A stretch of DNA of 64,000 nucleotides from Roseimicrobium gellanilyticum (GTDB taxonomy: Bacteria; Verrucomicrobiota; Verrucomicrobiia; Verrucomicrobiales; Verrucomicrobiaceae): the NCBI RefSeq assembly GCF_003315205.1, contig NZ_QNRR01000004.1, forward strand, positions 124,001 through 188,000, written 5' to 3'. The translations under genes and the position numbers were made by a program. The notes under the pieces were generated by a model. It was given only the letters and a program-made list of their open reading frames with translations, had not been told where the DNA came from and searched no databases. This document shows, in pieces, positions 3,011 to 26,405 of this stretch (positions within the stretch are counted from its first letter, which is position 1; each line of letters starts with the position of its first letter).

Positions 3011-3168
3011 GGGTGAAGTAATGCGGAGTGGAAGAGGGGATTCTTCAGGGGAATTTTGGGGAGGGGGAGATTTTTCCGCGAAGCGGAGCGTGTTCGGAGA
3101 TGGGATGGAGAGCTGCTGGCACATCGAACCATGAACGCTGGTTCGCTTTCATCTGGCATCTCGAAGGG

Positions 3169-3238
3169 GCGCTTTGCGTCGTGGAGTGCGGTGGCAAGAT
3201 CCCGCCCCTGCGGGACGCGACACCGCTTTGAACGGAGG
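3169..3238 (+). repeat. Dispersed hairpin repeat, family A, copy 1
   Basis: About 70 bp starting GCGCTTTGCGTCGTGGAG and ending CACCGCTTTGAACGGAGG. GCGGTG pairs with CACCGC, enclosing an apical hairpin TCCCGC-CCCT-GCGGGA. Other copies: 3333-3400 (opposite strand), 38441-38508, 38775-38832 (opposite strand). The apical stem differs between copies but stays paired. Confidence 0.75.
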
Positions 3239-3332
3239 ATTTCCGCCTTCACAAGCGCATCCTGTTAACAACGGCCGTCAATCGGCACATGTTCGATGTT
3301 GGAAAGCGGTGCGCGGTGCTCACAGCGCATGG

Positions 3333-3400
3333 CTCCGTTCAGAGCGGTGTCGCGGCCTCAAGGGAGGCCTATGCCACCGCACTCCACGACGCAAAGCGAC
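3333..3400 (-). repeat. Dispersed hairpin repeat, family A, copy 2
   Basis: Inverted relative to copy 1, about 95 bp away. On the minus strand the apical hairpin is GGCCTC-CCTT-GAGGCC instead of the stem in copy 1. The 3011-3439 intergenic region holds little else recognisable. Confidence 0.75.
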
Positions 3401-3439
3401 CTGGCGCGTTGAGTCGATATGCGGTGCCGCTTTTCCTGT

Positions 3440-3805
3440 TCACCCAGCTTCGGTCACCCGTTCGTACAAGCTGCAATGGCCGTGTGCTGGTCTGAGCGTC
3501 ATCAGGTCGCCGGACAGTTCGAGGTCACAACGGGAGAATACGCGGCCGGTTTGCGAGGACAGCAGCAGCTGGCCTGAATCGTCGATGCGCCAGTGAGCCT
3601 GTGTCTGATACACCCTGTTGTACCTGCACTCGACGGACCACAGCGCCTCGCCGGATGACAGGAGCGAAAGTTCATCGGCACTTGAGTCATGGGATGGAAT
3701 CTCCGTGAGCCAGAGTTTCCAGCGGCCGTGGCATGCTTCGTTTTTCACCTGCATGGCTGGGAGTACTCTGGCTGACAAATCGGTGATGGCAATCCTGTCC
3801 TGCAC
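3440..3805 (-). CDS. Hypothetical protein
   Basis: 121 residues, or 104 if the ATG at 3754 is used. Trp- and Tyr-rich with alternating polar and hydrophobic stretches (GRWKLWLTE; AHWRIDDSGQLLL; LELSGDLMTLRP), which suggests a small beta-sheet protein. No signal peptide with the longer start. It is transcribed away from the VanX-like gene (71 bp apart), so the short gap probably carries both promoters. The coding call rests on protein-like composition only. Confidence 0.45.
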   Translation of the reverse strand: MQDRIAITDLSARVLPAMQVKNEACHGRWKLWLTEIPSHDSSADELSLLSSGEALWSVECRYNRVYQTQAHWRIDDSGQLLLSSQTGRVFSRCDLELSGDLMTLRPAHGHCSLYERVTEAG

Positions 3806-3876
3806 TTCCGGATCGTTGCTTGCGCCCCGGGGTGCTCAAAGAATTTGAGCCCTGCGCGCCTGCCTGCTAGGGGGGG

Positions 3877-4824
3877 ATGATGCCACGTTTTATCCCCCAA
3901 GGTCTGCGCTCCTTCTGTCGTACTGCCGTGCCGCTGGTGCTCCTCGCGCTCGTCTCCTGTGCGGGCAGCAGTACGTATACGGAGAGCAAGACGCAGACAC
4001 TGGCGCTGGCGCGGAGCCGGGGACTGGTGGAGGTCACGAGCGTGGTCCCCGGCATCAAGTATGATCTGCTGTACCGCAAGGCGAACAACATCACACGCCA
4101 GCGGGTGTATCCGGAAGACATGCCGTGCCTGTTGCACCACACCACGGCGGCGAAGCTGCGCGTGGCGCAGGAGATTCTGCAGCGGCAGGGATATGGATTG
4201 AAGGTCTGGGATGCCTGGCGTCCGCCGGAGTCGCACACGGTCCTGCATGATCATGGCGGGTACACGGGCATGTTCACCCCGCCGGAGTACATGTGGTCGC
4301 GTCACTGCTCCGGCACGGCGGTGGATGTCACGCTGGTGGATGCGGGCGGTCGCGAGTTGGCGATGCCCACGGGGTTCGATGAAGGCGGACCTGACAGCTA
4401 CTACACCGCCAGCAATGTTTCGGCTGAGAAGCGCGAGCGGCGCGCCATTCTGCAGATGGCCATGACCTCTGCGGGCTTCAGCATTCTGAATACGGAGTGG
4501 TGGCACTTCGACGACGCCACGTATGACTCACGCGGGACACTGCCCGTGCCACCCGTGGTGTACGCGAAGGCCATTGGCCTGAATCTTCCCAAGGTGAGGC
4601 CTCCCAAGGTGAAACGGCAGTACGTGTATCCCGACGGCAGCACGACGACCACGACCTCCGCCACGGTGCCGCTGCCACCCAATCTCGGAGGCACCAGTTA
4701 CCTGCCGGGGGCAGATTCGGGAAGTGGAGTGACGCCGACGTCTGAGCCGGCGGCGGTCAAGAAGACGCCACCTCCACCGGTGATGCTGCCTACAGTGCCT
4801 TCGATTGCGCCGGGGGTACAGTAA
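3877..4824 (+). CDS. D-alanyl-D-alanine dipeptidase (VanX/M15D family) lipoprotein
   Basis: 315 residues. The N-terminus is a lipoprotein signal with lipobox LVSC (Cys28). The M15 zinc site is complete: SRHCSGTAVD gives His143 and Asp150, and TEWWHF gives the catalytic Glu207 and zinc ligand His210. WRPPESH matches the conserved WRP segment. The family cleaves D-Ala-D-Ala dipeptide, and lipid anchoring suggests peptidoglycan-fragment recycling at the envelope rather than vancomycin resistance; no vanH/vanA partners are present. The C-terminal ~90 residues are Pro/Thr-rich low complexity. The stop codon lies inside the first unit of a heptanucleotide array, so array slippage could alter what follows but not the stop itself. 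Confidence 0.9.
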   Translation: MMPRFIPQGLRSFCRTAVPLVLLALVSCAGSSTYTESKTQTLALARSRGLVEVTSVVPGIKYDLLYRKANNITRQRVYPEDMPCLLHHTTAAKLRVAQEILQRQGYGLKVWDAWRPPESHTVLHDHGGYTGMFTPPEYMWSRHCSGTAVDVTLVDAGGRELAMPTGFDEGGPDSYYTASNVSAEKRERRAILQMAMTSAGFSILNTEWWHFDDATYDSRGTLPVPPVVYAKAIGLNLPKVRPPKVKRQYVYPDGSTTTTTSATVPLPPNLGGTSYLPGADSGSGVTPTSEPAAVKKTPPPPVMLPTVPSIAPGVQ

Positions 4825-11825: not shown

Positions 11826-11902
11826 GTATTTGCATCGTCGATTGACTATGTGCTGCCCTCCGCTCTGTTGTGCCGCCTTTTCTCTCTGCACCATCAATCT
11901 GG

Positions 11903-14900
11903 ATGTCTCCCCTTCGTCATTCAGTCCGGCCGAAGCCGATCATCCGGTCGAGGTGCGGCGCCTGTTTCCACTCGCTCTGCTGGCGGAGCGTGGGGTGGGT
12001 GATGATGGTGCTGCTGCTCGTGGTATTGACGGGTGCAGTGCAGGCCGTTGAAGAGGACGAGCAGCCCCTGCTGCTGAAAGTGCCCACCGAGGTGCCGCAG
12101 CCGCCGCAGCCGCCGCCGGCGGCGCAGGCGAAACCCCTGCCTCCACCGGCACCCAAGCCGCTCCCGGTGCCTGCCGACACACCGTCGCCCACTTCTCCTT
12201 CGCAGTTCCTCCAGCTACCCCGTCAGCAGCAGCAGTTTCCCATTCCGGAGCCCGGCGAAGTGCAATCGCCTCGACTTCCCGGGCAGGAGATCACTCAGGA
12301 AATCAACGCTCTCCTTGCCGATGGCAAGGTTGGCCAGGCCATCGCGGGGGCGGAGGCGGAAGTGCGCCGGGCGGTGGCGGTGTCGGCGGACTGGCAAATG
12401 GAGCTCGCGGCGCTCTCCGCGCTGGCGAGTGCCCGCATGGCCAGCGCGAGCGTCACGCCACGGGAGCTGTACTCAGGGGAGGAGTTGCTTGGTCGCGGGC
12501 TGGAGATTCTGAAACACCATCCGGAGGTGGATGCCTACTGGGTGGCGGAGATCCACGGCAAGCTGGCGTGGGTGGCGATGAACCGGCAGCAGTTTGGTGT
12601 CGCCGGCATGCATCTGCTGCAGGCGGTGCATGCAAGTCTGGAGAGGCCGGACAGGCTCAGCGAGCAGTGGGAGCTGTGCCGGGCCTTCACTTCACTGTGT
12701 GAATTCTCCGGCAGTCTGGCGGATCTCACGCTGAAGGAGCAATTCATCAAGGTCCTGCTGAAAACGGTGCAGTCCGCCACGGTCCCAGATGACCTGCGCA
12801 TGGTCACCCCGATGGACCTCTGGGCGGAGCATCAGGAGACCATCCGTATCAAGGACTATGCGGGAGCGGCGAGCACCCGGCGCGCCATCCTGGATATCAT
12901 CGCCAAACACAGTGCGGTAGACGAGCGTCTCCCCACCCAGCTCCTGGCGTTGGCCGATTTGCTCAGCCTGCATCTCCATCAGCCGAAGGAGGCGGAGGAG
13001 CACTATCGCCTGGCGCTCGAGGCGGAGCTGATGCTGCCTGGCCTGAACAAACGCCAGGCGGAGATTCGCGACGGGCTTGCCAGACTCACCGGGTATCAGC
13101 TTGAGAAGGCCGGCGAGCATCTCACCCACACGGAGGAGTCGTGGAAAATCTGGAAGAAGGTGGGCTCACTGAATGACCTGGGGTGCCGTCAGGCGCAGGA
13201 GCGGCTGGCCGGGCTGCTCGCTACCAGGAAGCATGCGGATCGCGCAGAGCCTTTGTATACGGAGTTGCTGGAGTGGCATCGCAAGCAGGCCCCGCAGGCG
13301 GCGGCGTCGGAGTCCGCGCCGGTCAGCATGCTGCTGCAGGAGCGCGAGTCGGTGCTGCAGGATGCGTGTCGCTTTTTTGTGGATGTGGCCGAGAGACCGC
13401 AGATTGCCCTCGAGTGCTATCAAGAGCTGCTCGAACTCCAGGGGCGGCAGCAGGAGGCGGGGCAGCCGGAGCGCATGCGCACGCTCGTGGCCATGGCGGG
13501 GCTGCTGCAAAAGCTGGGCCGCAGTGAAGAGGCCAACCGCAGCATTACCGGCGTCCTGCAAGACTTGGAAAAAAAAGCGGCGCAGCATCCGGAGAGTTTT
13601 GATGCGACGGCCGCGCGGCACATGGCGCAATTCCACACAGTGCTGGGTCGTGGCTACAGTCATGACGGTGCGGATGAGGCCTCGCAGGAGCAAGGCATGC
13701 GGCATTTCCAAATGGCCACTGCATTGCGCCGTGACTTGCTGCGCACCAGTGCGGGGAAGGATGCGGCGGCCTCTGAGGATCGTCGCGAGGTGGTATGGAG
13801 TCTGGTGGACCAGGCGCGCGCCTTTGAGCACCGCGGGAATGTGGCGGCTGCGGAAGAACATTTCCGCAGGGCGCTGGCCTTTGCCGGGAACAAGCAGGGC
13901 AATCCCGGTTGGAAGGATGCGGCGCAGGCGCTGGCCACATTCCTGGCAGGCGAGCGACGCCACACGGAATCGGTCGCGGTGCTGAGGAAGATTCTTGAAG
14001 GACAGCCCGAGGGGGAAGCTCTGGAAGCCCGGCAGCAGCGGCGCGTGGTATTGCAGGAGCTGTATCGTGAACTCGACCGGGCGGGTGATGACGAAGGCGC
14101 GCTCGTGGTGCTCGCCCAGATGGATCGCAACTCCTGGAACACCCCGTGGCGCGTGGAGGAGGAGGAGTTTGTGGCGATTCGCGAGGCGCGCATCAAGCTG
14201 CGCAAGCGCCACATGGAAGCGGCTTGGGCGCAGATGCTGGAGACGCTGGAGAAACGTCGCGAGCGCCAGGATGAAGCGGGTCTGCTGGAACTGCTCGAGG
14301 AAATGATTCCCGTGGCCATTCTGCAGAAGGACGGGGTCTCCACGGAGCAATTCATGGAGGAGCGCATGGGCCTGCTGCGCAAGCAGGAAGCGGGTGCAGG
14401 TCCTCTGCAGGCGACGCTGCTGGAGCATGCAGGGTTGTGGCTCTTCAGCGGGGACAGCCAGCGGGCGCTGGAGGCCATTCAGGCGAGCCAGGCGCTTGGT
14501 CCCGTGGCGCAGTCGACCACGACTCCGCAGACGCGCGCCATCCTCGCGAGCGGGGCGATGCTGGAGATGTTCACGCTCGCGCAGCGGAAGGACATGACGG
14601 GTGCCAGGGCGGCGTGTGAGAACCTCGTGCGCTACACGGCAGGAACGCCGCATGAGCAGATGGTGAAGGAATTCCAGGCAAAGCTGGCGACGACCCCGGA
14701 TGCGATGGAGCCCTTCCAGAATGTGGCGCTGCTCGCGGTGCTGCATGATCGTGCGGCTGCCGGCCGGCGGCTGCTGGAGTGTGCCGTGGCCTTGTGTGAA
14801 GAGCGGCATGGCAGCACTGCGGCGGCGAGCATCCTGCTGCGCGAACAGCTTGGCCAGCTCTGCCTGCGTCTGGGCGAGCATGGCGCGGCAATTGCGCACT

Positions 14901-16753
14901 ATGAGATCGCGTGGTCCTCGCTGAAGGACAGCGCAGCCATGGCCGTGCAGGCGCGCAAGGGCGTGGTGTTGCAGAACCTGATCACGCTGCGTGCACGCAG
15001 TGGCGACTGGCCTTCGGCGGAGAAACACGCGCGGGAGATGCTGGACCTCATCACGGCGGTGGCTGGTGCGCAGGTGGTGGGTACGAGCCAGCTTCACCTC
15101 CAGCTCGCGGAGTGCGCGGGGAGGCGGGGCGATCGCGAGGTGGCGGCCACGCGCATGCTGGAGGCCCTGCGTGTGCTGGAGCTGGGCATGGCGGATGTGA
15201 TGCACTCCGGCACGGAGCAGGAGGTGCTGCACTACGCCGCGCAACGCCGGTCTGCCTTCGACCTCGTGGCCAGGTATGGCAGCGCCGAGGCGATTGCCGG
15301 GGCACTGGTGCGGCAGAAGGGTGTGCTGCTGGACTCACTCCTGCAGGACAGCCAGATGGCTCCGGCCAGCGGTGACCTCTCCGCGCAGCCGCTGCTGGGG
15401 CGCGTGGAGGTTGCCCGTTCCGCCCTGAGCACGATGGCGCGCAATGCGGCGGCCATCACCCTGGAAACGCCGTACGCGGATGCACAAGCCCTCTTGCAGG
15501 ACCTGGAGAAGCGGCGTGAGGACATGGCAGATGCAGAGTCCTCCTTCATGACGCTGCTGGGGGGCACGAATTGGAAGCGGCGCGCGCTGAGCACTTCACT
15601 TGCGGATGTGCGTGAGGGCATGCCTGAGGGGGCGGTGTTGCTGGACTTCTACCGGCATCGTGAACCGGGTGGGCTGGAGTACTTCAGCGTCTCCATACTG
15701 CCGAAGAAAGGCGTGGTGAAACAGGTGCGCCTTGCTGAAGCGGGACTGGTTGAAGAGCTCATCAGGCTGTATCATCAAGTGATACAACATCACACCAATG
15801 AAGCCACCGCCGCACAGGTGCTCGCGGCGCTTGGGCAGGTGGTGGTGGGACAGGCCCTGGCCAACCTGGAGCATCCTCCCGCGATGCTCATCCTTTGTCC
15901 GGATGATGCGCTGCAGATGGTTTCCTTTCCCACCCTCCTGCTGGAGCCGGACGGGCGGTTCCTTTCGGAACTCATGCCGCTGCGCCAGGTCACCGCCGCG
16001 CGTGATCTCGCCCTGCTGCCGCCTGCGGGACCTCCGGCCACGCCGATAGAGGCCAGGGCTGGGACCAATGCGGATGCCGGGAGTCTGGAGAAAAAGCTGC
16101 GTGATGAGGTGAAAGCTTCGCCGGTGCTGCAGGTGCGTGCGCCGTTGTTTTTCCTGCCTTCAGCTTCGCAACGCGAGGAGGTCATGGGAGATGCCGGGCA
16201 TGCCGGCAATCCTTCGTGGCGGTCCGGGCTTTTGTTGAGCAGCGCAGACGATACACTCACGGCCTGGAAGGAGAGCCTGCGGGTCGCTGCGTCTGCCGGT
16301 GAGTCAGATGCGAGCACCGAGCCTGAAGTGGAGGATGGCATCTTCGCGGCCTCGGAGATTGCGACGCTGGATCTTCGTAAAACGAAATTGGTGACCGTGC
16401 CTGCGTGTCTGTCCCGTGTGGATCTCCTGCAGCCGGAGTCCGGGGCGGATGACCTGCTGGCACTGCAACGCGCGTTCACGCTGGCTGGTGCTGAGCAATC
16501 GCTGCTGGCGCTCTGGCCGGTGGAGGACAAGGCCGCGACTGCTGAGTTCATGAGCGACCTCCAGAAGAAGCTGCAAGCCAGCGGAGTGATGGAGCAGGGG
16601 AGTGCTGGTGAGGTGGACGTGGCGGTACTGCTGCAGGAGGTGCAGCGCGAGTGGCTCGTGAGATTGCGTGGGGAGAAGGATGGTGGGCTGGTGAAAGCAG
16701 TGAGCACGGCGGGGCCGTTTGTGATGATGCAGGGGGTGCGGGCGAGGAGGTAG
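11903..16753 (+). CDS. Giant TPR protein with degenerate C-terminal CHAT domain
   Basis: 1616 residues from the ATG at 11903; an ATG at 12002 would give a shorter signal. The hydrophobic segment MMVLLLVVLTGAVQA is a signal peptide or anchor. A Pro-rich linker follows, then about 1100 residues of TPR-like helical repeats (e.g. EEAEEHYRLALEAELMLPG; AAEEHFRRALAFAG). The last ~400 residues match the CHAT caspase-like fold: LDFYRHREPG, LILCPDDALQMVSFPTLL, DGIFAASEIATLDL, VTVPACLSR with Cys1502, ALQRAFTLAGAEQSLLALWPV. Where active CHAT proteases have the histidine segment ('LHLATHG'), this protein reads PLFFLPSASQ. The Cys is kept but the His appears lost. Role unknown; scaffold or pseudo-protease in the envelope is inferred. 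Confidence 0.8.
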   Translation: MSPLRHSVRPKPIIRSRCGACFHSLCWRSVGWVMMVLLLVVLTGAVQAVEEDEQPLLLKVPTEVPQPPQPPPAAQAKPLPPPAPKPLPVPADTPSPTSPSQFLQLPRQQQQFPIPEPGEVQSPRLPGQEITQEINALLADGKVGQAIAGAEAEVRRAVAVSADWQMELAALSALASARMASASVTPRELYSGEELLGRGLEILKHHPEVDAYWVAEIHGKLAWVAMNRQQFGVAGMHLLQAVHASLERPDRLSEQWELCRAFTSLCEFSGSLADLTLKEQFIKVLLKTVQSATVPDDLRMVTPMDLWAEHQETIRIKDYAGAASTRRAILDIIAKHSAVDERLPTQLLALADLLSLHLHQPKEAEEHYRLALEAELMLPGLNKRQAEIRDGLARLTGYQLEKAGEHLTHTEESWKIWKKVGSLNDLGCRQAQERLAGLLATRKHADRAEPLYTELLEWHRKQAPQAAASESAPVSMLLQERESVLQDACRFFVDVAERPQIALECYQELLELQGRQQEAGQPERMRTLVAMAGLLQKLGRSEEANRSITGVLQDLEKKAAQHPESFDATAARHMAQFHTVLGRGYSHDGADEASQEQGMRHFQMATALRRDLLRTSAGKDAAASEDRREVVWSLVDQARAFEHRGNVAAAEEHFRRALAFAGNKQGNPGWKDAAQALATFLAGERRHTESVAVLRKILEGQPEGEALEARQQRRVVLQELYRELDRAGDDEGALVVLAQMDRNSWNTPWRVEEEEFVAIREARIKLRKRHMEAAWAQMLETLEKRRERQDEAGLLELLEEMIPVAILQKDGVSTEQFMEERMGLLRKQEAGAGPLQATLLEHAGLWLFSGDSQRALEAIQASQALGPVAQSTTTPQTRAILASGAMLEMFTLAQRKDMTGARAACENLVRYTAGTPHEQMVKEFQAKLATTPDAMEPFQNVALLAVLHDRAAAGRRLLECAVALCEERHGSTAAASILLREQLGQLCLRLGEHGAAIAHYEIAWSSLKDSAAMAVQARKGVVLQNLITLRARSGDWPSAEKHAREMLDLITAVAGAQVVGTSQLHLQLAECAGRRGDREVAATRMLEALRVLELGMADVMHSGTEQEVLHYAAQRRSAFDLVARYGSAEAIAGALVRQKGVLLDSLLQDSQMAPASGDLSAQPLLGRVEVARSALSTMARNAAAITLETPYADAQALLQDLEKRREDMADAESSFMTLLGGTNWKRRALSTSLADVREGMPEGAVLLDFYRHREPGGLEYFSVSILPKKGVVKQVRLAEAGLVEELIRLYHQVIQHHTNEATAAQVLAALGQVVVGQALANLEHPPAMLILCPDDALQMVSFPTLLLEPDGRFLSELMPLRQVTAARDLALLPPAGPPATPIEARAGTNADAGSLEKKLRDEVKASPVLQVRAPLFFLPSASQREEVMGDAGHAGNPSWRSGLLLSSADDTLTAWKESLRVAASAGESDASTEPEVEDGIFAASEIATLDLRKTKLVTVPACLSRVDLLQPESGADDLLALQRAFTLAGAEQSLLALWPVEDKAATAEFMSDLQKKLQASGVMEQGSAGEVDVAVLLQEVQREWLVRLRGEKDGGLVKAVSTAGPFVMMQGVRARR

Positions 16754-17027: not shown

Positions 17028-20000
17028 CTACGTGCAGGCTTCGCATTCCTTGCCGTTGATTGCCTTATCCCTCTGCGCAGCGAGCCACGCGGCGTACTCG
17101 GCGGGGTCTGCGGCAGCGTTGCCGGTGGGCGAGGCGCTCTTGCCCTGGGCAGCAGGGGCGGCGGCTGAGCCACCGGCCTGGGCGATGACGCCGCGCAGTT
17201 CCTTTTCCTTCACCACGGAGGAGGCCTCGATGTTCGTGGCGCTCAGGGTGCGGAGGTAGTAGGTGGTCTTCAGACCCTTGCGCCAGGCGCCGCGGTAGAT
17301 GCGGGACAGCGTGGCAAGGTCCACGGCGGAGTACCACAGGTTCGTGCTCTGGCTCTGGTCGATCCATTTCTGGCGACGAGCAGCGGCGTCGAGGACGTAC
17401 TCGGCATCGATGGCGAAGGCGGTGGCGTAGCGCTTCTTCAGCGCGACGGGCACGTTGTCCATGGGCTCCAGCTCACCATTGGAAAGGATGAGCGATTCGC
17501 GCATGTCGTTATTCCACAGGCCAATCTTCTTCAGATCCTTCACGAGGTAAGGATTGAGCATGAGATAGGCGCCGCCGAGGTTCTCCTTGCCGAAAAGGTT
17601 CTTGTACAGGGGCTCGATGCACGGGCTGCTGCCCATGATGTTCGAGATGGTTGCGGTCGGAGCGATGGCGATGACGTTGCTGTTGCGCATGCCCTGCTTG
17701 GCAATCTTCTCACGCACCGGCTTCCAGTCCATCTTGCCGCCGCGAGGCACTTCGATGGCCACGCCGCGCTCCTCTTCGAGGAGGTCCACGGTGTCTTGCG
17801 GAAGCAGACCACGGGACCACTTGCTGCCTTCGTAGCTGGAGTAGGTGCCACGCTCCGCGGCGAGGTCGCTGGAGGCTTCGTAGGCGTAGTAGGCCACGGC
17901 TTCCATGATCTCGTCGTTGAAGGCCACGCCTTCTTCCGAGCCGAAGGGCACACCCTTGCGATAGAGCGCGTATTGCAGACCCATGACACCGAGACCGATG
18001 GGGCGGTGGCGGGTATTCGCACGGCGCGCGGCTTCCGTGGGGTAGAAGTTGATGTCGATCACGTTGTCCAGCGCACGCACGGCCATGCGGATGGTCTCGC
18101 GCAGCTTGGTGTGGTCGATGTCACCGGAGTCGGTGAGGTGATTTTCCAGCACCACGGAGCCGAGGTTGCACACGGCGGTTTCATCGGCGCTCGTGTTGAG
18201 CGTGATCTCGGTGCACAGGTTCGAGCTGTGGATCACACCCACGTGGTCCTGCGGGCTGCGGACGTTGCACGGGTCCTTGAAGGTGATCCAGGGATGGCCG
18301 GTCTGGAAGAGGAGCTTCAGCATGCTCTTCCACAGGTCGAGCGCGGGAATCTTCTTTCCGTAGATCTCACCCTTGGCGGCCTTCTCTTCATACTCCACGT
18401 ACTTCGATTCGAAGGCGCGGCCGTAGAGCTCGTGCAGCTCGGGCACGTCATTGCTGCGGAAGAGGGTCCATTCCTGGCGGGCCTCCATGCGCTTCATGAA
18501 GAGGTCAGGAATCCAGTTCGCCGTGTTCATGTCGAACGTGCGGCGGCGGAGGTCACCGGTCTGGTCATGCAGGTGAAGGAAGTCCTCCACGTCGTTGTGC
18601 CACGTTTCGAGGTAGGCGCAGCCGGAGCCCTTGCGCTTGCCACCCTGGTTCACGGCCACGAGCTGGTCATTGTGCAGCTTGAGGAAGGGGATGACACCCT
18701 GGGATTCCCCGTTGGTGCCCTTGATGTAGCCACCGGTACCACGCACGGAAGTCCAGGAACCACCGAGGCCGCCCGCCCACTTGCTGAGGAAGGCATTCTC
18801 CGCGATGCCGCGGATCATGATGGACTCGATGTTGTCATCCACCTTGTACAGGTAGCAGGAGGAAAGCTGGGAGTGCAGCGTGCCGGCATTGAAGAGGGTC
18901 GGCGTGCTGGAGCAGAAGCGGCGGCTCTTGTAGAGGGAGTAGAGATTGATGACCTTCGTCACCGCCTCGCTCTTCTCCTGGAGGAAGAGGCCCATGGCCA
19001 CGCGCATCCAGAAGAGCTGGGGCGTTTCGAGACGGCGGGAGGGCTTCACCTTCTTGTCCACGATCAGGTAGCGATCATAGAGCGAGCTGATGCCGAGGAA
19101 GTCGAAGTCGAGGTCCGCCGCCGGGTCGAGGGCTTCTGCGAGGCGGTCGAGATCATAGTTCAGCAGGCGGGGGTCGAGGCGCTCGATCTCCACACCGCGC
19201 TGCAGATTGCGGCGCAGGGCGCGGCGATGGAAGAGTGGCAGAGCTTCGATGCCATCCTTCACGATGTCCCAGCCGAGCACCTCTTCATAGATGTAGGTGA
19301 GCAGGATGCGCGCGGCGAATTTGGCGAAGTCCGCATCATGGCTGATGAGCGTGCGCGCATTCAGGATGATGGTCTTCTTCAGGTCCTCTTTGGACATTTC
19401 CGCAGCGAAGGAGCGGCGGAGTTCCACTTCGATCTCTTCGCGGGTGAGGCAGACATCGAGACCGAGCAGCGCGTAGTCCATGCGCTTGCGGAGGTCCAGG
19501 CCATCCCAGAGGACGCTGGAGCCATCCGTGGAGCGCACGAGGATGAAGCTGTCCTGCTGGGTATCGCCACCGAGCTGGAGCTGCTGCTGCTCGGAGGATT
19601 CCTCCTCGGTGCGGCGCATTTCCTTGCGGTGCGTACGGTAGGCGATGTAGGCGGCAGCCACCTTGAAGTGGCCCTGGCGCATGAGTTCCTCCTGCACCAC
19701 GTCCTGCAGGTCCTCGATGTGCACGAATTGGCGCGCCTCATCGGACATGCGGCGGCTCACGGCATCGGCGATGGCCACGGCGGGCTCGGAGTTCACTTCC
19801 AGGGAGAGGAAGGCCTTGCGCACCGCGGACTCAATCTTGCTCTGGTTCCACGGCACGGCCTCGCCATTGCGCCGGATGACCTTGGTCGGAACCATCACGG
19901 GCTGGGGATTGGAGGTATTATGAGTGGGGATATGGCTTTGCATGCGGGTCACGACACTGCGTGCAAGGTCATGCTGATTATAACGAACGAGGGTGCGCTC

Positions 20001-20384
20001 GATGATGCGGTAGATTTCCTCGGAGCGGAGCACCGGAGCGCCCTGCTGGTCGCGCAGCTCGGTCTCACGGGTGCGGCGGGCCAGTTCATCCGCCACGGTC
20101 AGGGCGATGGTGCGGACGAGGTCGCGGTTCCGCTCGGTGTAGATTTCGTCCTGCTTTTTGCGGGAGAGCTGGAGGTCCGCGAGCGCATTGCCCACAGTAT
20201 CAGCAATTTCTCCCATGTCGAAGGGGCGGCGCATGCCGTCCACCTCCACCTCCATGCCGGGCTCCAGAAGCTCGGCGCAGCCGCTCGCAAGCCCGCGCCA
20301 GTCAAAGTGCGGACGCAGTTCCTTGGACAGGTTGGCAAGGCGCTTGAGCGCCCTGTCTTCATCAATCAGGTGGCGGGAAATCAT
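17028..20384 (-). CDS. nrdA: Ribonucleoside-diphosphate reductase, alpha (catalytic) subunit, class I
   Basis: 1118 residues, longer than the ~760 of E. coli NrdA because of an N-terminal extension. ATP-cone modules are visible at about 165-255 (IRRNGEAVPWNQSKIESAV) and 275-375 (TDGSSVLWDGLDLRKRM), plus a cone-like region at 40-140. Catalytic core: FNAGTLHSQLSSCYL, NLCTEITLNT and CNLGSVVLENH (active-site cysteines), and RNSNVIAIAPTATISNIMG. The C-terminus ECEACT supplies the redox pair Cys1114/Cys1117 that thioredoxin-type partners reduce. It reduces ribonucleoside diphosphates to deoxy forms with NrdB, encoded just upstream. Multiple ATP cones also occur in chlamydial NrdA and suggest dATP/ATP allosteric control. 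Confidence 0.95.
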   Translation of the reverse strand: MISRHLIDEDRALKRLANLSKELRPHFDWRGLASGCAELLEPGMEVEVDGMRRPFDMGEIADTVGNALADLQLSRKKQDEIYTERNRDLVRTIALTVADELARRTRETELRDQQGAPVLRSEEIYRIIERTLVRYNQHDLARSVVTRMQSHIPTHNTSNPQPVMVPTKVIRRNGEAVPWNQSKIESAVRKAFLSLEVNSEPAVAIADAVSRRMSDEARQFVHIEDLQDVVQEELMRQGHFKVAAAYIAYRTHRKEMRRTEEESSEQQQLQLGGDTQQDSFILVRSTDGSSVLWDGLDLRKRMDYALLGLDVCLTREEIEVELRRSFAAEMSKEDLKKTIILNARTLISHDADFAKFAARILLTYIYEEVLGWDIVKDGIEALPLFHRRALRRNLQRGVEIERLDPRLLNYDLDRLAEALDPAADLDFDFLGISSLYDRYLIVDKKVKPSRRLETPQLFWMRVAMGLFLQEKSEAVTKVINLYSLYKSRRFCSSTPTLFNAGTLHSQLSSCYLYKVDDNIESIMIRGIAENAFLSKWAGGLGGSWTSVRGTGGYIKGTNGESQGVIPFLKLHNDQLVAVNQGGKRKGSGCAYLETWHNDVEDFLHLHDQTGDLRRRTFDMNTANWIPDLFMKRMEARQEWTLFRSNDVPELHELYGRAFESKYVEYEEKAAKGEIYGKKIPALDLWKSMLKLLFQTGHPWITFKDPCNVRSPQDHVGVIHSSNLCTEITLNTSADETAVCNLGSVVLENHLTDSGDIDHTKLRETIRMAVRALDNVIDINFYPTEAARRANTRHRPIGLGVMGLQYALYRKGVPFGSEEGVAFNDEIMEAVAYYAYEASSDLAAERGTYSSYEGSKWSRGLLPQDTVDLLEEERGVAIEVPRGGKMDWKPVREKIAKQGMRNSNVIAIAPTATISNIMGSSPCIEPLYKNLFGKENLGGAYLMLNPYLVKDLKKIGLWNNDMRESLILSNGELEPMDNVPVALKKRYATAFAIDAEYVLDAAARRQKWIDQSQSTNLWYSAVDLATLSRIYRGAWRKGLKTTYYLRTLSATNIEASSVVKEKELRGVIAQAGGSAAAPAAQGKSASPTGNAAADPAEYAAWLAAQRDKAINGKECEACT

Positions 20385-20409: not shown

Positions 20410-20456
20410 GGAAAGGGGCGCAGGGAACGGTGATCCCTGCCGGCGCGCCCCTTTCC
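20410..20456 (-). promoter_or_regulatory. Strong hairpin in the nrdB-nrdA intercistronic gap
   Basis: GGAAAGGGGCGC (20410-20421) pairs perfectly with GCGCCCCTTTCC (20445-20456), and an inner AGGGA/TCCCT stem extends it. There is no long U-tract. It may act as a partial attenuator or mRNA stabiliser setting the nrdB:nrdA ratio. Confidence 0.55.
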
Positions 20457-20492
20457 AGGGCCATGGCCGGCAGGCCGGATGAAGGTGGTTAC

Positions 20493-21578
20493 TTAGAACT
20501 CGTCGTCACTGCCGACGACAAGGGAGCCACGAGTCTGGTACTCGGTGACCTTCTGTTCGAAGAAGTTCGTCTCCTTCTTCACGTCCATGACTTCGATGAG
20601 CCATGGGAGCGGGTTCTTCACACCCGGGTTGAGCAGGGGCAGGCCCACGCCGGTGAGGCGGCGGTCAGCGATGTAGTCGATGTACTGCTCAAATTCGTCG
20701 GCGCTCAGGCCCACGGCGCCCACAGGGAGGCAGTCGCGGATGAACTCCTTCTCCAGCGTCACGGCCTCGCGCATGATGTCCACGAGCTGGCTGCGGAACT
20801 CCGGGCTCCAGATATCGGGATTTTCATCCACGAGGTCCATGAACAGGTTGCGGAAGAGCTCAATGTGGTTGCTCTCATCCCGCAGTGTGTAGCGGAACAT
20901 CTGGCCGATGCCGGGGAACTTGTTCTGCCGGTAGAGGCTGAGGATCATGCCGAACAGGCCGTAGAACTGGGTGCCCTCCATGCACTGGCCGAAGACGAAG
21001 ATATTCTGCGCCAGCAGGCGCTTGTTCTCTGTCTGGGTCAGGTCGAGGTCGCGGCGCAGGGCGTGCGACACACGGGTGACAAATTCGTTCTTCTTCTTGA
21101 TGGACTCCACCTGCTCGAACATCGCCTCGCACTCGTGCGGGTTGATGCCCAGGCTGGAGATCATGTAGAGGAGGCTGTCCGCGTGGATGTTTTCCTCATG
21201 GGCGTGGCGGCCCAGCACGAGCTTCAGTTCGGGAGCAGTGACCAGCTCACGCACCACGTGCATGACATTGTCTCCCACGATGCCCTCGGCGGCGGAGAAA
21301 TAGCCGATGCCCATCATGATGATCCAGCGCTCGGTCTCGGTCAGCGCGTTGGGGGAGCGCCACTGTTCGGCGTCCTTCTGCATGCTGATGTCCTCCGGCT
21401 CCCAGTGGTTGGCCTTCATCTTGCGATAGAGGTCGTAGGCCCACTTGTATTTGAGGGGAAGGAGATTGAAGGCCTCGGTCTTGCGGCCGTTGATGATGCG
21501 TTTGGCCGTGTAGGCGGCCTCGGCCTTATCCTGGTCGAGGACAAACTTGCGGTCTCCGATTTGGTAAGTCTTTTCCAT
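20493..21578 (-). CDS. nrdB: Ribonucleotide reductase beta subunit, class Ic-like (no radical tyrosine)
   Basis: 361 residues. The ferritin-like metal site is complete: Glu98 (AAEGI), Glu129 and His132 (EENIH), Glu201 (CMEG), Glu235 and His238 (RDESNH). In standard class Ia proteins the first ligand is Asp and a Tyr sits four residues after the first His. Here that position is Leu136 (sequence ENIHADSLL). Spacings match the chlamydial class Ic protein, which has Glu and Phe at these two sites and uses a Mn(IV)/Fe(III) cofactor instead of a tyrosyl radical. So it should generate the NrdA thiyl radical without tyrosyl radical; Mn/Fe use is inferred. Transcribed ahead of nrdA with a 108-bp gap. 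Confidence 0.95.
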   Translation of the reverse strand: MEKTYQIGDRKFVLDQDKAEAAYTAKRIINGRKTEAFNLLPLKYKWAYDLYRKMKANHWEPEDISMQKDAEQWRSPNALTETERWIIMMGIGYFSAAEGIVGDNVMHVVRELVTAPELKLVLGRHAHEENIHADSLLYMISSLGINPHECEAMFEQVESIKKKNEFVTRVSHALRRDLDLTQTENKRLLAQNIFVFGQCMEGTQFYGLFGMILSLYRQNKFPGIGQMFRYTLRDESNHIELFRNLFMDLVDENPDIWSPEFRSQLVDIMREAVTLEKEFIRDCLPVGAVGLSADEFEQYIDYIADRRLTGVGLPLLNPGVKNPLPWLIEVMDVKKETNFFEQKVTEYQTRGSLVVGSDDEF

Positions 21579-21685
21579 GGCAGCGACAGAGGTGATTTTG
21601 GGGTTGAAGAAGGCGGGTAAGTGACGGATGCGTAACGAGCCAACTGAACCGCGGAGGACCTCAACAAGCGGTGGGGTGTTTCATA

Positions 21686-22431: not shown

Positions 22432-22661
22432 GTAGATACATATACAGCTTGCTGGAGAGAGAGTAACCACGCGGTGGTGAGGAACTGCGGGAAAGCCGCG
22501 TTCAAACCCAAACGGACTTGTCGGCTTCCCTGACCGAGGTTAAGGTGTTCAGTCACCACTTTGTGATGTCTGGTGAAGGGCATGGCTTGCCTTTCCCCTC
22601 CATTCACCTCCCTTCTTGCCTCCGGGCCGATTTGGCGGATGCTTGGCGCCCCTCATTCCCT

Positions 22662-25600
22662 ATGCTCCGTCCAGGTTTCCTTTTTCTGCTCACGGCTTCG
22701 GTATCGCTCTCGCTTGTCTGTGTGACCTTCACCTCCCCGGTGCAGGGGGCGCAGACTTCCTCAAAGAAAAAATCGAGCGCCTCCTCCTCGAAGAGCAAGG
22801 GAAAGGGGAAGACTCCGACCTCGACGGACGCGAAGAAGAAGACTGAGTCGACCCCTGCTCCAGCCCCCGCGCCCGCACCTGTGGCGCCGCCCGCGCTGCC
22901 GAATGAGGAAGACAAGCCCGTGCCCGTGCCGCCGCTGCCTTCCCAGAAGCTGCAACTGCACAAGTGGTCCGGCGCGCTCAATGTGCCAGACCCGGTGGCA
23001 GTCACGGTAGACCCGCAGGGGCGCGTGTACGTGACGCAGACGACGCGCCGCAAGGTGGGAGACCTGGACATCCGTGAGCACACGCAGTGGATTCCCAATG
23101 ACGTGGCGATGGAGAGCATCGAGCAGAAGAAGGCGTTCTACCATGACGTGCTCGCCCCGGGGAAGACGCTCCGCCCGCGCGGCAGCCTGAAGGACCACAA
23201 CAAGGATGGCTCCATCGACTGGAAGGACCTCACCGTGCACACTGAGCGCATCTACCGCCTGGAGGACACGGATAAGGACGGCACGGCGGACAAGATCACG
23301 CTCTTTGCCGAGGGCTTCAACACGGAGGTCACGGGCATCGCTGCCGGCATCCTGTACCATGACGGCTGGGTGTACTGCACCATCGCGCCGGACCTGTGGC
23401 GCCTGCGCGACACGAATGATGACGGCGTGGCGGATGAGCGCGAGGTCGTGGCGCATGGCTTCGGCCACCACATCGCGTATGCAGGCCATGACATGCACGG
23501 CCTCACCGTGGGGCCTGACGGGCGCATCTACTGGACCATCGGCGACAAGGGCGTGAACGTCCTCACGAAGGAGGGCAAGCGGGTCGCGAAGCCGCATGAA
23601 GGATGCGTGCTGCGTTGCGAGCCGGACGGGAAGAATTTCGAAATCTTCGCCCATGGTCTGCGGAATGTGCAGGAGATCGCCTTCGACGAGCACGGCAATC
23701 TCTTCGGCGTGGACAACGATGCGGACAAGACGGGCGAAAAGGAACGCTTCGTCTACATCACCGAGGGCAGCGACTCCGGATGGCGCTGCACCTACCAGTA
23801 CATGAAGGGGTGGATTCCCTGGATGGACGAGGGCCTGTGGAAGCCGCGCTTTGCCGGGCAGCCAGAGTACATCACCCCGCCACTGGCTCAGGGTCATGAT
23901 GGTCCTGCGGGTTTTGTCTTTAATCCCGGAACAGCGCTCGCGGCTCCCTGGAGGCAGGGTTTCTTTGGAAACCAGTTCCCGAGTGGGAAGATGAATGTCT
24001 TCCGCGTGGCACCGTCCGGGGCGTCCTTCACGGTGACGCAGGATGCGACAGTGAACAGCGGTGTCATGGGCATCGGCATGAGCTGGGGTCCCGAGGGCAA
24101 GCTCTACCTGGCTGACTGGATGGGTGGCTATCCGCTGGATGAACTGGGCGCGATCTGGACCGTGGATGACCCCACGGGCACGGACAGCACGGAGCGACAG
24201 GAAACGCTGACCCGCCTGCGCGAGGGCTTCAGCAATCCGGAGGCCGTGGAGCCGCTGGCCTACCTCGGGCATGCCGACCAGCGCGTGCGTCTGGCGGCAC
24301 AGTTTGAGATTGTAAAGCGGGGTGAGTTTGCTCGCTTGGAAGAAGTTGCGAAGAATGCCAACCAGCCGCGTCTCGCCCGCATCCATGCGCTGTGGGGACT
24401 GGGCCAGGGCATGCGTGCCGGGAAGGTGGAGCGGGGGAGTGTGGAGGGGCTTATCACGGCTCTGGCGGAGGATAAGGACCTCGAAGTCCGTGCCCAACTC
24501 GCGAAGGTGGTGGGAGACTCGCAAAACGATAGTTCGTTTGGCGCGAAGCTCCTTTCTTTGCTGAAGGACCGCAGCCCGCGCGTGCGCTTTCAAGCGGCCG
24601 TCGCATTGGGCAAGCTGCAGGTGAAAGAGGCCACGCCAGAACTGCTGGCCCAACTCGCCCTCAATGCCGACAAGGATGCGTACCTGCGCCACGCGCTGGT
24701 GAGCGGCCTGACGGGCTGCGCGACCACCGGGGAACTGGCGGCGACGGCGACGCACGAGTCCCGTTCCGTGCGACTGGGTGCGGTGCTGGCGTTGCGTCGC
24801 CGGGCAGATGGGGCGGTTTCGGCGTTCCTTGAGGATAAAGATGCAGCGGTCGCTACCGAGGCGGCGCGGGCCATTCATGACGATGAGTCCATTCCTGCCA
24901 AGTTGCCCGAGCTGGCGGCTTCTTTGGATTCAAAGCGAGTCGTTCCTGATGCGTTTACCCGTCGTGTGCTGAATGCAAATTTCCGCATCGGTGACACCGC
25001 GGGAGCGGAACGCGTGGTGAGTTATGCCCTCCGTGAAGATGCCGCGCTCCCCGTGCGGAATGAAGCACTGACCCTTCTCACTCTCTGGTGCACGCCGCCT
25101 CCACTGGACCGTGCGGATGGACGTGCGCGCACGCTCGAAGCTCGCGATGAGAAAGCCATCGCGGACGTGTTGCGTCCCCATCTGGACCAGCTCATGGCCC
25201 TCAAGGATACGGGCCTCAAGACACTGGCCATCCAAATCCTCATCGCCTACAAGTTGCCGGTTGAAGCGAACGTGGCCGCCGCTGCCGTGATGGAAGGCAG
25301 TGCGCCAGCGGAGACGCGCATCGGCGCGCTGCAGCTGCTCGCCACCCAGCACGGTGGCTCGGCGGAACTGGGCAAGACCCTGACCGCGCTCGTGGAAGGC
25401 AAGGCTCAGCCGCAAGCCCAGGCCCAGGCCCGAGGAAAAACGAAAACTCAAGCCCAGACCCAACCCCAGGCTCAGACTCCGGAGACCCTGCGCATTGCCG
25501 CGCTGGAGATTCTGGCCCGGGAAAAGCCAGAGGTCGCCATCGAGCAGGCCGGGAAGCTGCTGACCTCCGGATCCACCTTGGAAAAGCAGAAGTGCCTGGC

Positions 25601-26405
25601 TCTCCTGGCCGAGCTGAAGATGGACGCGGCGGATGTGGTGCTGACCAGGGAGATGGAGCAGCTCGTTGCCGGCAAGTGCCCGCCATCCCGCCAGCTCGAT
25701 GTCCTGGAAGCCGTACTGGCCCGCTCTGCGGATGTCGCCGTTCTGAAGGAGAAGCTGGATGCCTTTGAGGCGACCCGCGCCGGAGCCGTGGGCACGGTGG
25801 GTGCCTATCTTGAGTGCCTGGAAGGTGGCAGCTCGGTGGAAGGCAAGGACATCGCACTGGAGCACCTCGCGGCGAACTGCACGGCCTGCCATCGTTTTGA
25901 CTCAAAGGAAGGCAGCACCGTGGGCCCGCAGCTCAGCGGTATCGGCGCGCAGAAGGATCGCACGTACCTGCTGGAGTCGCTGGTGAATCCCGTGGCCCAG
26001 ATCGCGCCGGGTTACGGCATGGTGTCTGTGACGCTGAAGGATGGGAAGTCCTACGCCGGCGTGGTGGTGAAGGAAGATGCCGAGAATGTGGAGCTCAAGC
26101 TCGCGGATGGTTCGGTGAAGAAGATTGATATCGCCGAGGTGACCGTGAAGACCCCGCCCATTTCCGTGATGCCGCCGATGAGTGCCATGCTGACGAAGCG
26201 CCAGCTCCGCGACCTCGTGGCATACTTGGCGGGCCTGAAAAGTGGTGGTGGCAGCTTAGGCTCGAAGAAAGTCGCCGTGAAGGAAACGGAGACCGGCGAG
26301 CATGAGGTGGCGGAGGAGGGGAAGAGGGAAGGTGGTGACGGAAAGGACCCGGGCGCCGCGAGCTCCAAAAAGGAAGCCACTGGCAAAAAGAAGAAGCAAG
26401 GATAG
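22662..26405 (+). CDS. PVC-type haem-binding membrane-bound dehydrogenase-like protein with HEAT repeats and cytochrome c motif
   Basis: 1247 residues from the ATG at 22662, chosen because it starts a signal peptide (MLRPGFLFLLTASVSLSLV). A Lys/Ser/Pro-rich linker leads to a beta-propeller of the 'membrane-bound dehydrogenase' type (VPDPVAVTVDPQGRVYVTQT; WTIGDKGVN; VDNDADKTGE). Three Asp-rich calcium-type loops follow one another (DHNKDGSIDWKD, DTDKDGTADK, DTNDDGVADE). Residues ~570-1040 are HEAT-like repeats. The C-terminal part is a cytochrome c-type domain with CTACH (Cys1073, Cys1076, His1077) and PQLSGIG. The family is hallmark Planctomycetes/Verrucomicrobia; periplasmic oxidation of sugars or alcohols is proposed but the substrate is unknown. 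The tail is Lys/Glu-rich. Confidence 0.85.
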   Translation: MLRPGFLFLLTASVSLSLVCVTFTSPVQGAQTSSKKKSSASSSKSKGKGKTPTSTDAKKKTESTPAPAPAPAPVAPPALPNEEDKPVPVPPLPSQKLQLHKWSGALNVPDPVAVTVDPQGRVYVTQTTRRKVGDLDIREHTQWIPNDVAMESIEQKKAFYHDVLAPGKTLRPRGSLKDHNKDGSIDWKDLTVHTERIYRLEDTDKDGTADKITLFAEGFNTEVTGIAAGILYHDGWVYCTIAPDLWRLRDTNDDGVADEREVVAHGFGHHIAYAGHDMHGLTVGPDGRIYWTIGDKGVNVLTKEGKRVAKPHEGCVLRCEPDGKNFEIFAHGLRNVQEIAFDEHGNLFGVDNDADKTGEKERFVYITEGSDSGWRCTYQYMKGWIPWMDEGLWKPRFAGQPEYITPPLAQGHDGPAGFVFNPGTALAAPWRQGFFGNQFPSGKMNVFRVAPSGASFTVTQDATVNSGVMGIGMSWGPEGKLYLADWMGGYPLDELGAIWTVDDPTGTDSTERQETLTRLREGFSNPEAVEPLAYLGHADQRVRLAAQFEIVKRGEFARLEEVAKNANQPRLARIHALWGLGQGMRAGKVERGSVEGLITALAEDKDLEVRAQLAKVVGDSQNDSSFGAKLLSLLKDRSPRVRFQAAVALGKLQVKEATPELLAQLALNADKDAYLRHALVSGLTGCATTGELAATATHESRSVRLGAVLALRRRADGAVSAFLEDKDAAVATEAARAIHDDESIPAKLPELAASLDSKRVVPDAFTRRVLNANFRIGDTAGAERVVSYALREDAALPVRNEALTLLTLWCTPPPLDRADGRARTLEARDEKAIADVLRPHLDQLMALKDTGLKTLAIQILIAYKLPVEANVAAAAVMEGSAPAETRIGALQLLATQHGGSAELGKTLTALVEGKAQPQAQAQARGKTKTQAQTQPQAQTPETLRIAALEILAREKPEVAIEQAGKLLTSGSTLEKQKCLALLAELKMDAADVVLTREMEQLVAGKCPPSRQLDVLEAVLARSADVAVLKEKLDAFEATRAGAVGTVGAYLECLEGGSSVEGKDIALEHLAANCTACHRFDSKEGSTVGPQLSGIGAQKDRTYLLESLVNPVAQIAPGYGMVSVTLKDGKSYAGVVVKEDAENVELKLADGSVKKIDIAEVTVKTPPISVMPPMSAMLTKRQLRDLVAYLAGLKSGGGSLGSKKVAVKETETGEHEVAEEGKREGGDGKDPGAASSKKEATGKKKKQG

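Follow-up and report, generated by a model that had tools for sequence, protein, structure and literature searches.

An R2 subunit of class I ribonucleotide reductase (RNR) that carries a leucine where the radical tyrosine is expected raises the question of how such an enzyme would store the oxidising equivalent with which nucleotide reduction begins. The subunit considered here is NrdB, encoded by nrdB at positions 20493..21578 on the minus strand of the window (the whole stretch of DNA analysed, 64,000 nucleotides); the gene starts with ATG and yields a Leu-type protein of 361 residues. The original prediction held that this protein works without a tyrosyl radical and is a leucine variant of class Ic, less studied than the phenylalanine form. 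In the classification given in the available sections of PMC8463856, class Ic combines Phe at the radical site with Glu at metal ligand 1, class Id combines Tyr with Glu, and classes Ia and Ib combine Tyr with Asp.

The metal site and the radical position of NrdB

NrdB matches the R2 family PF00268 with 235.5 bits (gathering cut-off 33.6) and the NCBIfam model PRK07209 with 343.4 bits (cut-off 309). Its residues 98, 129, 132, 136, 138, 201, 235 and 238 are E, E, H, L, Y, E, E and H, and the six metal ligands are all present: Glu98 (codon 21285..21287; ligand 1, which is Asp in class Ia/Ib R2s), Glu129 (21192..21194), His132 (21183..21185), Glu201 (20976..20978), Glu235 (20874..20876) and His238 (20865..20867), all of them, like the other codons given below, on the minus strand. 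This is the metal site that had been proposed, to which we add the strand. Leu136 (21171..21173) aligns with Phe in the NrdB of Chlamydia and in the R2 of Saccharopolyspora erythraea, and with Tyr in E. coli NrdB, which bears out its placement at the radical-tyrosine position; Glu98 aligns with Glu in the former two and with Asp in the latter. We take the Leu136 column to be that of Phe127 in the Chlamydia trachomatis (Ct) protein and of Tyr122 in E. coli, and the Glu98 column to be that of E. coli Asp84.

The residues that mark class Ic are present: Leu136 replaces the Tyr, Glu98 is the first carboxylate ligand, and the radical path is represented by Tyr347 (20538..20540; the C-terminal intersubunit radical-transfer tyrosine, at the position of E. 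coli Y356), Trp59 (21402..21404; presumably the position of Ct W51 and E. coli W48) and Asp234. W59, E129, H132, E201, D234, E235, H238 and Y347 are invariant over 45 aligned R2s. With Glu at ligand 1, six ligands kept and no tyrosine at the radical site, the ligand set is class Ic-like, as had been claimed.

Assignments to other classes were rejected. Class Ia or Ib needs Asp at ligand 1 and a radical Tyr (and NrdI for Ib), and NrdB has Glu98 and Leu136; class Id needs the Tyr/Glu pairing, and Leu136 occupies the radical site; class Ie is marked by the loss of carboxylate ligands, and all ligands are kept. An R2lox protein, judged by the NCBIfam cut-offs, the absence of a C-terminal Tyr and an Ala at the pocket Phe position, does not fit either: scores reach at most 53 bits against cut-offs of 194-315, Tyr347 is present, and Phe205 stands at the R2 pocket Phe position. 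A plus-strand open frame opposite nrdB (20430-21620) was taken as the mirror ORF of GC-rich coding DNA.

Conservation among relatives

Glu98 and Leu136 are kept in 110 of 110 loci: 30 come from the own and related genomes, and the other 80 are the best of 577 relatives on named genome contigs; in the same set Tyr138 is kept in 109. Of these best 80, one (L094) bears an Armatimonadetes label, perhaps through a binning error, and the others have Verrucomicrobiota names. A larger R2 alignment, which is redundant (it holds the query sequence twice), has 199 Glu/Leu, 17 Glu/Phe and 43 Asp/Tyr rows; an R2lox-like sequence (L230, below 60 bits) was left out of the alignments. Asp here pairs with Tyr, and Glu with a residue other than Tyr at the radical site, the exceptions being two Glu/Tyr rows (L254 from a Blattabacterium plasmid, and L238), one degenerate paralogue and incomplete rows. 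Because the Leu136/Glu98 pair is kept in all 110 loci and in 199 Glu/Leu rows, it is neither chance nor a sequencing slip. At the level of the phylum sample, an R2 match is present in 125 of 387 genomes, and for the 122 whose sequence was read, the Leu type occurs in 84, only Asp/Tyr in 25 and only Glu/Phe in 13.

The original prediction had itself named Tyr138 as a tyrosine near the metal site that might be the true radical residue. The check was run: three of the 199 Glu/Leu rows have His at position 138 and one has Phe, and the viral Val/Ile R2 rows described below vary there between Tyr, Thr and His. Tyr138 is not conserved, therefore it is not the radical site, and it was ruled out.

Several relatives carry unusual R2 genes. 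In genome G422, a second R2 (L164:1799-3013, plus strand) lies in tandem beside nrdB (3041-4147); it has lost four of six ligands (Gln98, Arg132, Val235, Arg238) and has no Tyr at the C-terminal transfer position, with the acidic C-terminal tail retained, and its product looks like a non-catalytic beta-prime subunit. Second Leu-type R2s in tandem with a normal copy are found in G165 (L208:2935-4029, plus strand) and G253 (L214:1896-3143, minus strand); their ligands are intact, but they have His138, His209 and Asn230, the last at what we take to be the position of Ct Y222. The nrdB of G374 (L233) is in two overlapping open frames in that assembly. In G037, the very divergent R2 L238, with its Glu/Tyr pairing, Thr231 and a Glu at the usual Asp234 position, adjoins pieces of alpha-subunit matches.

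A threonine in the radical pocket

The pocket round the tyrosyl radical comprises Ile269, Phe243 and Phe247 in yeast, according to the part of PMC3824934 that was available; position 231 was equated with the pocket Ile by its offset from the ligands. In NrdB this position is Thr231 (20886..20888), where E. coli and Phe-type class Ic R2s have Ile, and all 198 readable Glu/Leu rows have Thr. Patterns of the close relatives of NrdB found nothing in viral contigs, but the R2 profile did find viral R2s: the best 80 of its 591 relatives comprise 39 Glu/Val, 21 Glu/Ile and 19 Asp/Tyr rows and one misaligned row, and Thr231 is present in all 60 of the Glu/Val or Glu/Ile rows among these best 80 of 591.

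In a scan of 322 columns over four groups thinned at 85% identity, column 231 is the only perfect separator: Thr occupies it in 54/54 Leu and 20/20 Val/Ile types, and in 0/12 Phe and 0/44 Asp/Tyr types. The next-best columns, those of Ile239 and Thr203, also adjoin ligands. Three sequences of types outside the four scanned groups count against the pattern, as judged from their residues: the Glu/Tyr protein L238, which also has Thr231, the Glu/Tyr protein L254, which has Ser231, and the degenerate Leu paralogue of L164, which has Leu231. The two phage records that were read (L343 and L344, out of twelve listed for a viral Val-type query) are both Asp/Tyr with Ile231.

Phylogeny of the Leu type

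Trees were built without columns 98, 136, 203, 204 and 231, and rows more than 80% identical were dropped. The reduced tree left out eight long-branch or odd rows and E. coli NrdF; the tree with viral rows left out six long-branch or odd rows, E. coli NrdF and viral rows more than 75% identical, and kept ten Leu rows, with L282 (misaligned) and L322 (partial) dropped from the viral set, here as in the column scan above. The Leu type forms one clade throughout, with support of 100/99 in the first tree, where the degenerate L164 paralogue is included, and of 99/97 in the reduced tree and 98/96 in the tree with viral rows, in both of which the bootstraps had not settled. A second clade unites the Phe types of Chlamydia, Verrucomicrobiota, S. 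erythraea and Halorussus, and Asp/Tyr R2s from Pseudomonas, Legionella and Massilia branch from within it; class Ic as defined by residue is thus patchy, and it is likewise patchy in Lundin et al. 2010, according to the accessible part of PMC3824934.

The position of the Leu clade shifts between trees, from beside the Chlamydia clade (90/56, first tree) to a grouping with Asp/Tyr groups (81/86, tree with viral rows). A constraint joining Leu and Phe types in one clade is neither favoured nor rejected (p-AU 0.171, reduced tree), and one joining all Glu/non-Tyr types, viral rows included, gives a borderline p-AU of 0.0505. Since the Leu clade lies outside a Phe clade with Asp/Tyr R2s nested in it, the cofactor cannot be passed on by descent. 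Of the proposal that NrdB is a leucine variant of class Ic, the part defined by residues stands; as to ancestry, the Leu clade forms its own branch on these trees, outside the Chlamydia clade.

The viral Val/Ile R2s fall inside the Chlamydia/haloarchaea clade (93/88), and placing them in one clade with the Leu type is rejected with p-AU 0.007, for a group that was named after the tree had been seen. Because the two groups are not sisters, the aliphatic residue and Thr231 seem to have changed together at least twice, and a parallel change of this pair from two lineages would be the simplest reading of the trees. These considerations allow the bolder suggestion, which we regard as doubtful, that the aliphatic residue with Thr231 constitutes a second, convergent non-tyrosyl R2 design apart from the Phe/Ile pocket of class Ic, reached separately by bacteria (Leu) and viruses (Val/Ile), in which Thr231, together with water in the space of the missing ring, might aid proton transfer at site 1 or tune the choice of metal. 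As natural variants that apparently arose in parallel, the Leu/Thr and Val-Ile/Thr groups could serve to probe the first proton-coupled step at the metal.

Genomic context and regulation

The catalytic subunit gene, nrdA (17028..20384, minus strand), starts 108 bp downstream of nrdB and encodes 1118 residues with one ATP-cone (Pfam). NrdA retains the positions of E. coli C225, N437, C439, E441, C462, Y730 and Y731, and the C-terminal cysteine pair. The own genome (99.7% complete, 32 contigs) has one PF00268 match and one PF02867 match, the latter within the adjacent nrdA, and a search of the same assembly for a class III RNR (PF13597) gave no match; as controls, the three family searches matched 7, 11 and 6 of 14 known genomes. 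The single-contig genomes G001 and G012 each have one R2 match (in a search with the query NrdB), one PF02867 match and no PF13597 match, and among the 35 genomes searched 25 combine a single alpha match with the absence of a class III match; in two genomes, G014 and G046, the alpha subunit is on a different contig from the R2. Given a single R2, a single class I/II alpha subunit and no class III hit, the Leu-type enzyme is probably the supplier of all dNTPs in its cells.

A candidate NrdI partner was rejected: the single PF07972 match in the own genome (G000) is marginal (28.3 bits, cut-off 27) and lies in a 617-aa frame, whose homologous frame in the relative L261 is CysJ-like.

Upstream of nrdB, between 21687 and 21797, lie four NrdR-box-like 16-mers (starts 21687, 21719, 21750 and 21782), spaced 31-32 bp apart and each matching the NrdR box consensus at 10 or 11 of 16 positions; 42 places in the 64-kb window reach 10/16, one of them (21859) nearby but out of phase. 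NrdR boxes are usually arranged as two sites. Of 194 Leu-type genes, many from close relatives, 128 are preceded by a pair of such sites spaced 20-22 or 31-33 bp apart; among 1940 mononucleotide shuffles, 75 show such a pair. An NrdR gene is present elsewhere in the genome, and together with the putative sites it would fit a housekeeping RNR.

Scans of the 64-kb window for Rfam families and tRNAs gave nothing. Upstream of nrdB, on the opposite strand, a 1295-aa frame (22518-26405, plus) carries DUF7133 and HEAT repeats; other long frames on the plus strand encode TPR repeats with a C-terminal CHAT domain (11870-16753, 1627 aa) and a GH130 phosphorylase domain followed by a GFO/IDH/MocA oxidoreductase (47490-50153, 887 aa).

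Proposed mechanism and alternatives

We consider it likely that NrdB and NrdA form an ordinary housekeeping class I RNR that works in the class Ic manner, its oxidant being based on the metals and probably Mn(IV)/Fe(III); the metals, their oxidation states, the mechanism and the role of Thr231 are what we infer from residues and relatives. NrdB would take up a metal pair, most likely with Mn filling site 1 and Fe filling site 2. The pair would react with O2 and, for want of an oxidisable tyrosine next to site 1, itself store one oxidising equivalent as Mn(IV)/Fe(III). From there the hole would pass through the Trp59/Asp234 region to Tyr347 in the tail, then to Tyr1043/Tyr1042 of NrdA and finally to Cys724, where nucleotide reduction would begin; Leu136 and Thr231 would repack the former tyrosine pocket, replacing Phe and Ile.

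The oxidant might instead reside on another metal pair, either the dimanganese Mn(IV)/Mn(III) pair of class Id or high-valent di-iron, a reading that we hold to be unlikely. Class Id likewise has Glu at ligand 1 and a metal-based oxidant, as stated in the part of PMC8463856 at hand. The Leu clade also lies phylogenetically apart from the known Mn/Fe enzyme. However, the marks of class Id are absent from NrdB: it has no radical-site Tyr, Gly102 rather than Lys four residues after ligand 1, and Leu232 rather than Thr three before the fifth ligand, at positions presumably equivalent by their offsets from the ligands. The Lys and Thr in question are Lys71 and Thr191 of F. johnsoniae (PMC8463856, same sections). 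By sequence and fold NrdB is nearest to Ct NrdB, though fold likeness is no guide to the metal; since the pocket and many further columns peculiar to the Leu type, beyond 136, 231, 203 and 204, differ from Ct NrdB, the choice of metal could change. The residue before ligand 1 is a second-sphere place that affects the choice between Mn and Fe in R2lox and class Ib, according to the available part of PMC7239806; here it is Ala97, as in Ct NrdB, a match which, with Ala also in 10/43 Asp/Tyr rows, would be weak support for Mn/Fe.

That a tyrosyl radical forms after all, on another tyrosine near the cluster, seems to us highly improbable. Apart from the variable Tyr138, the candidates are Tyr93, Tyr206 and Tyr230, and Tyr93 is the one with a matching distribution, being Tyr in 199/199 Glu/Leu rows and Phe in 17/17 Glu/Phe rows; yet E. 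coli NrdB also has a Tyr at this position, which we take it not to use, and Tyr206 and Tyr230 are also present in 17/17 Glu/Phe rows, whose studied member uses metal. We give hardly any credence to the idea of a non-catalytic R2 that, in the manner of yeast Rnr4, depends on a second R2. One relative does carry a degenerate R2 in tandem (L164:1799-3013), which has lost four of its six ligands, and in Apicomplexa the R2s that lack the radical Tyr lack the C-terminal one too (PMC3824934, in the part available), but NrdB keeps every ligand and its C-terminal Tyr, and no other R2 was detected in its genome.

Comparison with known systems

Leucine at the radical site is already in print. Under the rule for NrdBzc (class Ic) in PMC6370689, the Tyr site may hold Phe, Leu or Val; PMC3824934 cites Hogbom 2010 as having documented R2c proteins with Leu, Ile and Val; and PMC12918982 treats Phe or Leu as the class Ic reference state and viral Ile/Val R2s as 'Ic-like', each source being available in part. 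The Leu form as such is thus not new, and is less novel than the original prediction implied. Phe or Leu is also reported in class O, in the accessible sections of PMC9531940. Our literature search, with subscription papers mostly outside its scope, found no characterised Leu-type enzyme, no mention of the Thr231 pairing and nothing on the separateness of the Leu clade from the Chlamydia/haloarchaeal Phe clade; a search on Verrucomicrobia and RNR turned up only a planctomycete description. In the literature covered, it is the Chlamydia enzyme, of the Phe type, from which the mechanism of class Ic was worked out. The Leu type, apparently non-tyrosyl and outside the Chlamydia branch, is carried by the majority of the R2-bearing genomes read in the phylum sample. 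Of most interest are the single-RNR evidence and the pairing of an aliphatic residue with Thr.

An AlphaFold2 model of NrdB (36 sequences, pLDDT 86.1, pTM 0.84, with the tail from 333 on unreliable) retrieves Chlamydia NrdB at Foldseek ranks 1-13, Mn/Fe-loaded entries included; the structural Z is about 42 for these, about 36 for E. coli and 33-34 for class Id. The best PDB relatives by sequence are also Ct NrdB, and the next solved is 6y2n, the R2 of S. erythraea (PMC7467353, seen in part). With the class Ic NrdB of C. trachomatis (1syy, 4d8f, 4d8g, 4m1i), NrdB has in common the six ligands with Glu at ligand 1, the absence of the radical Tyr, the radical-path residues and the fold, at 36-38% identity over the structural alignment. 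It differs in having Leu136/Thr231/Thr203/Gln204 where Ct has Phe/Ile/Ile/Phe, in the separate branch given to the Leu type by the trees, and in the gene order, which is nrdB-nrdA here and nrdA-nrdB in Chlamydia (PMC3019208, available sections). Glu at ligand 1 is likewise found in the S. erythraea R2, whose radical site also lacks Tyr, but, unlike NrdB, that protein has the Phe/Ile pocket and groups with the Tyr-type R2s of Pseudomonas, Legionella and Massilia. By the stated residue rule, into which its Leu falls, NrdB resembles the NrdBzc group of the RNRdb-based surveys. The viral 'subclass Ic-like' R2s of PMC12918982, as described in the part available, share with it the Glu at ligand 1 and an aliphatic radical site; from the residues, we infer that the viral Val/Ile rows read here come from the same kind of viruses, and these rows share Thr231 with NrdB, have Val or Ile instead of Leu, and belong to a different clade.
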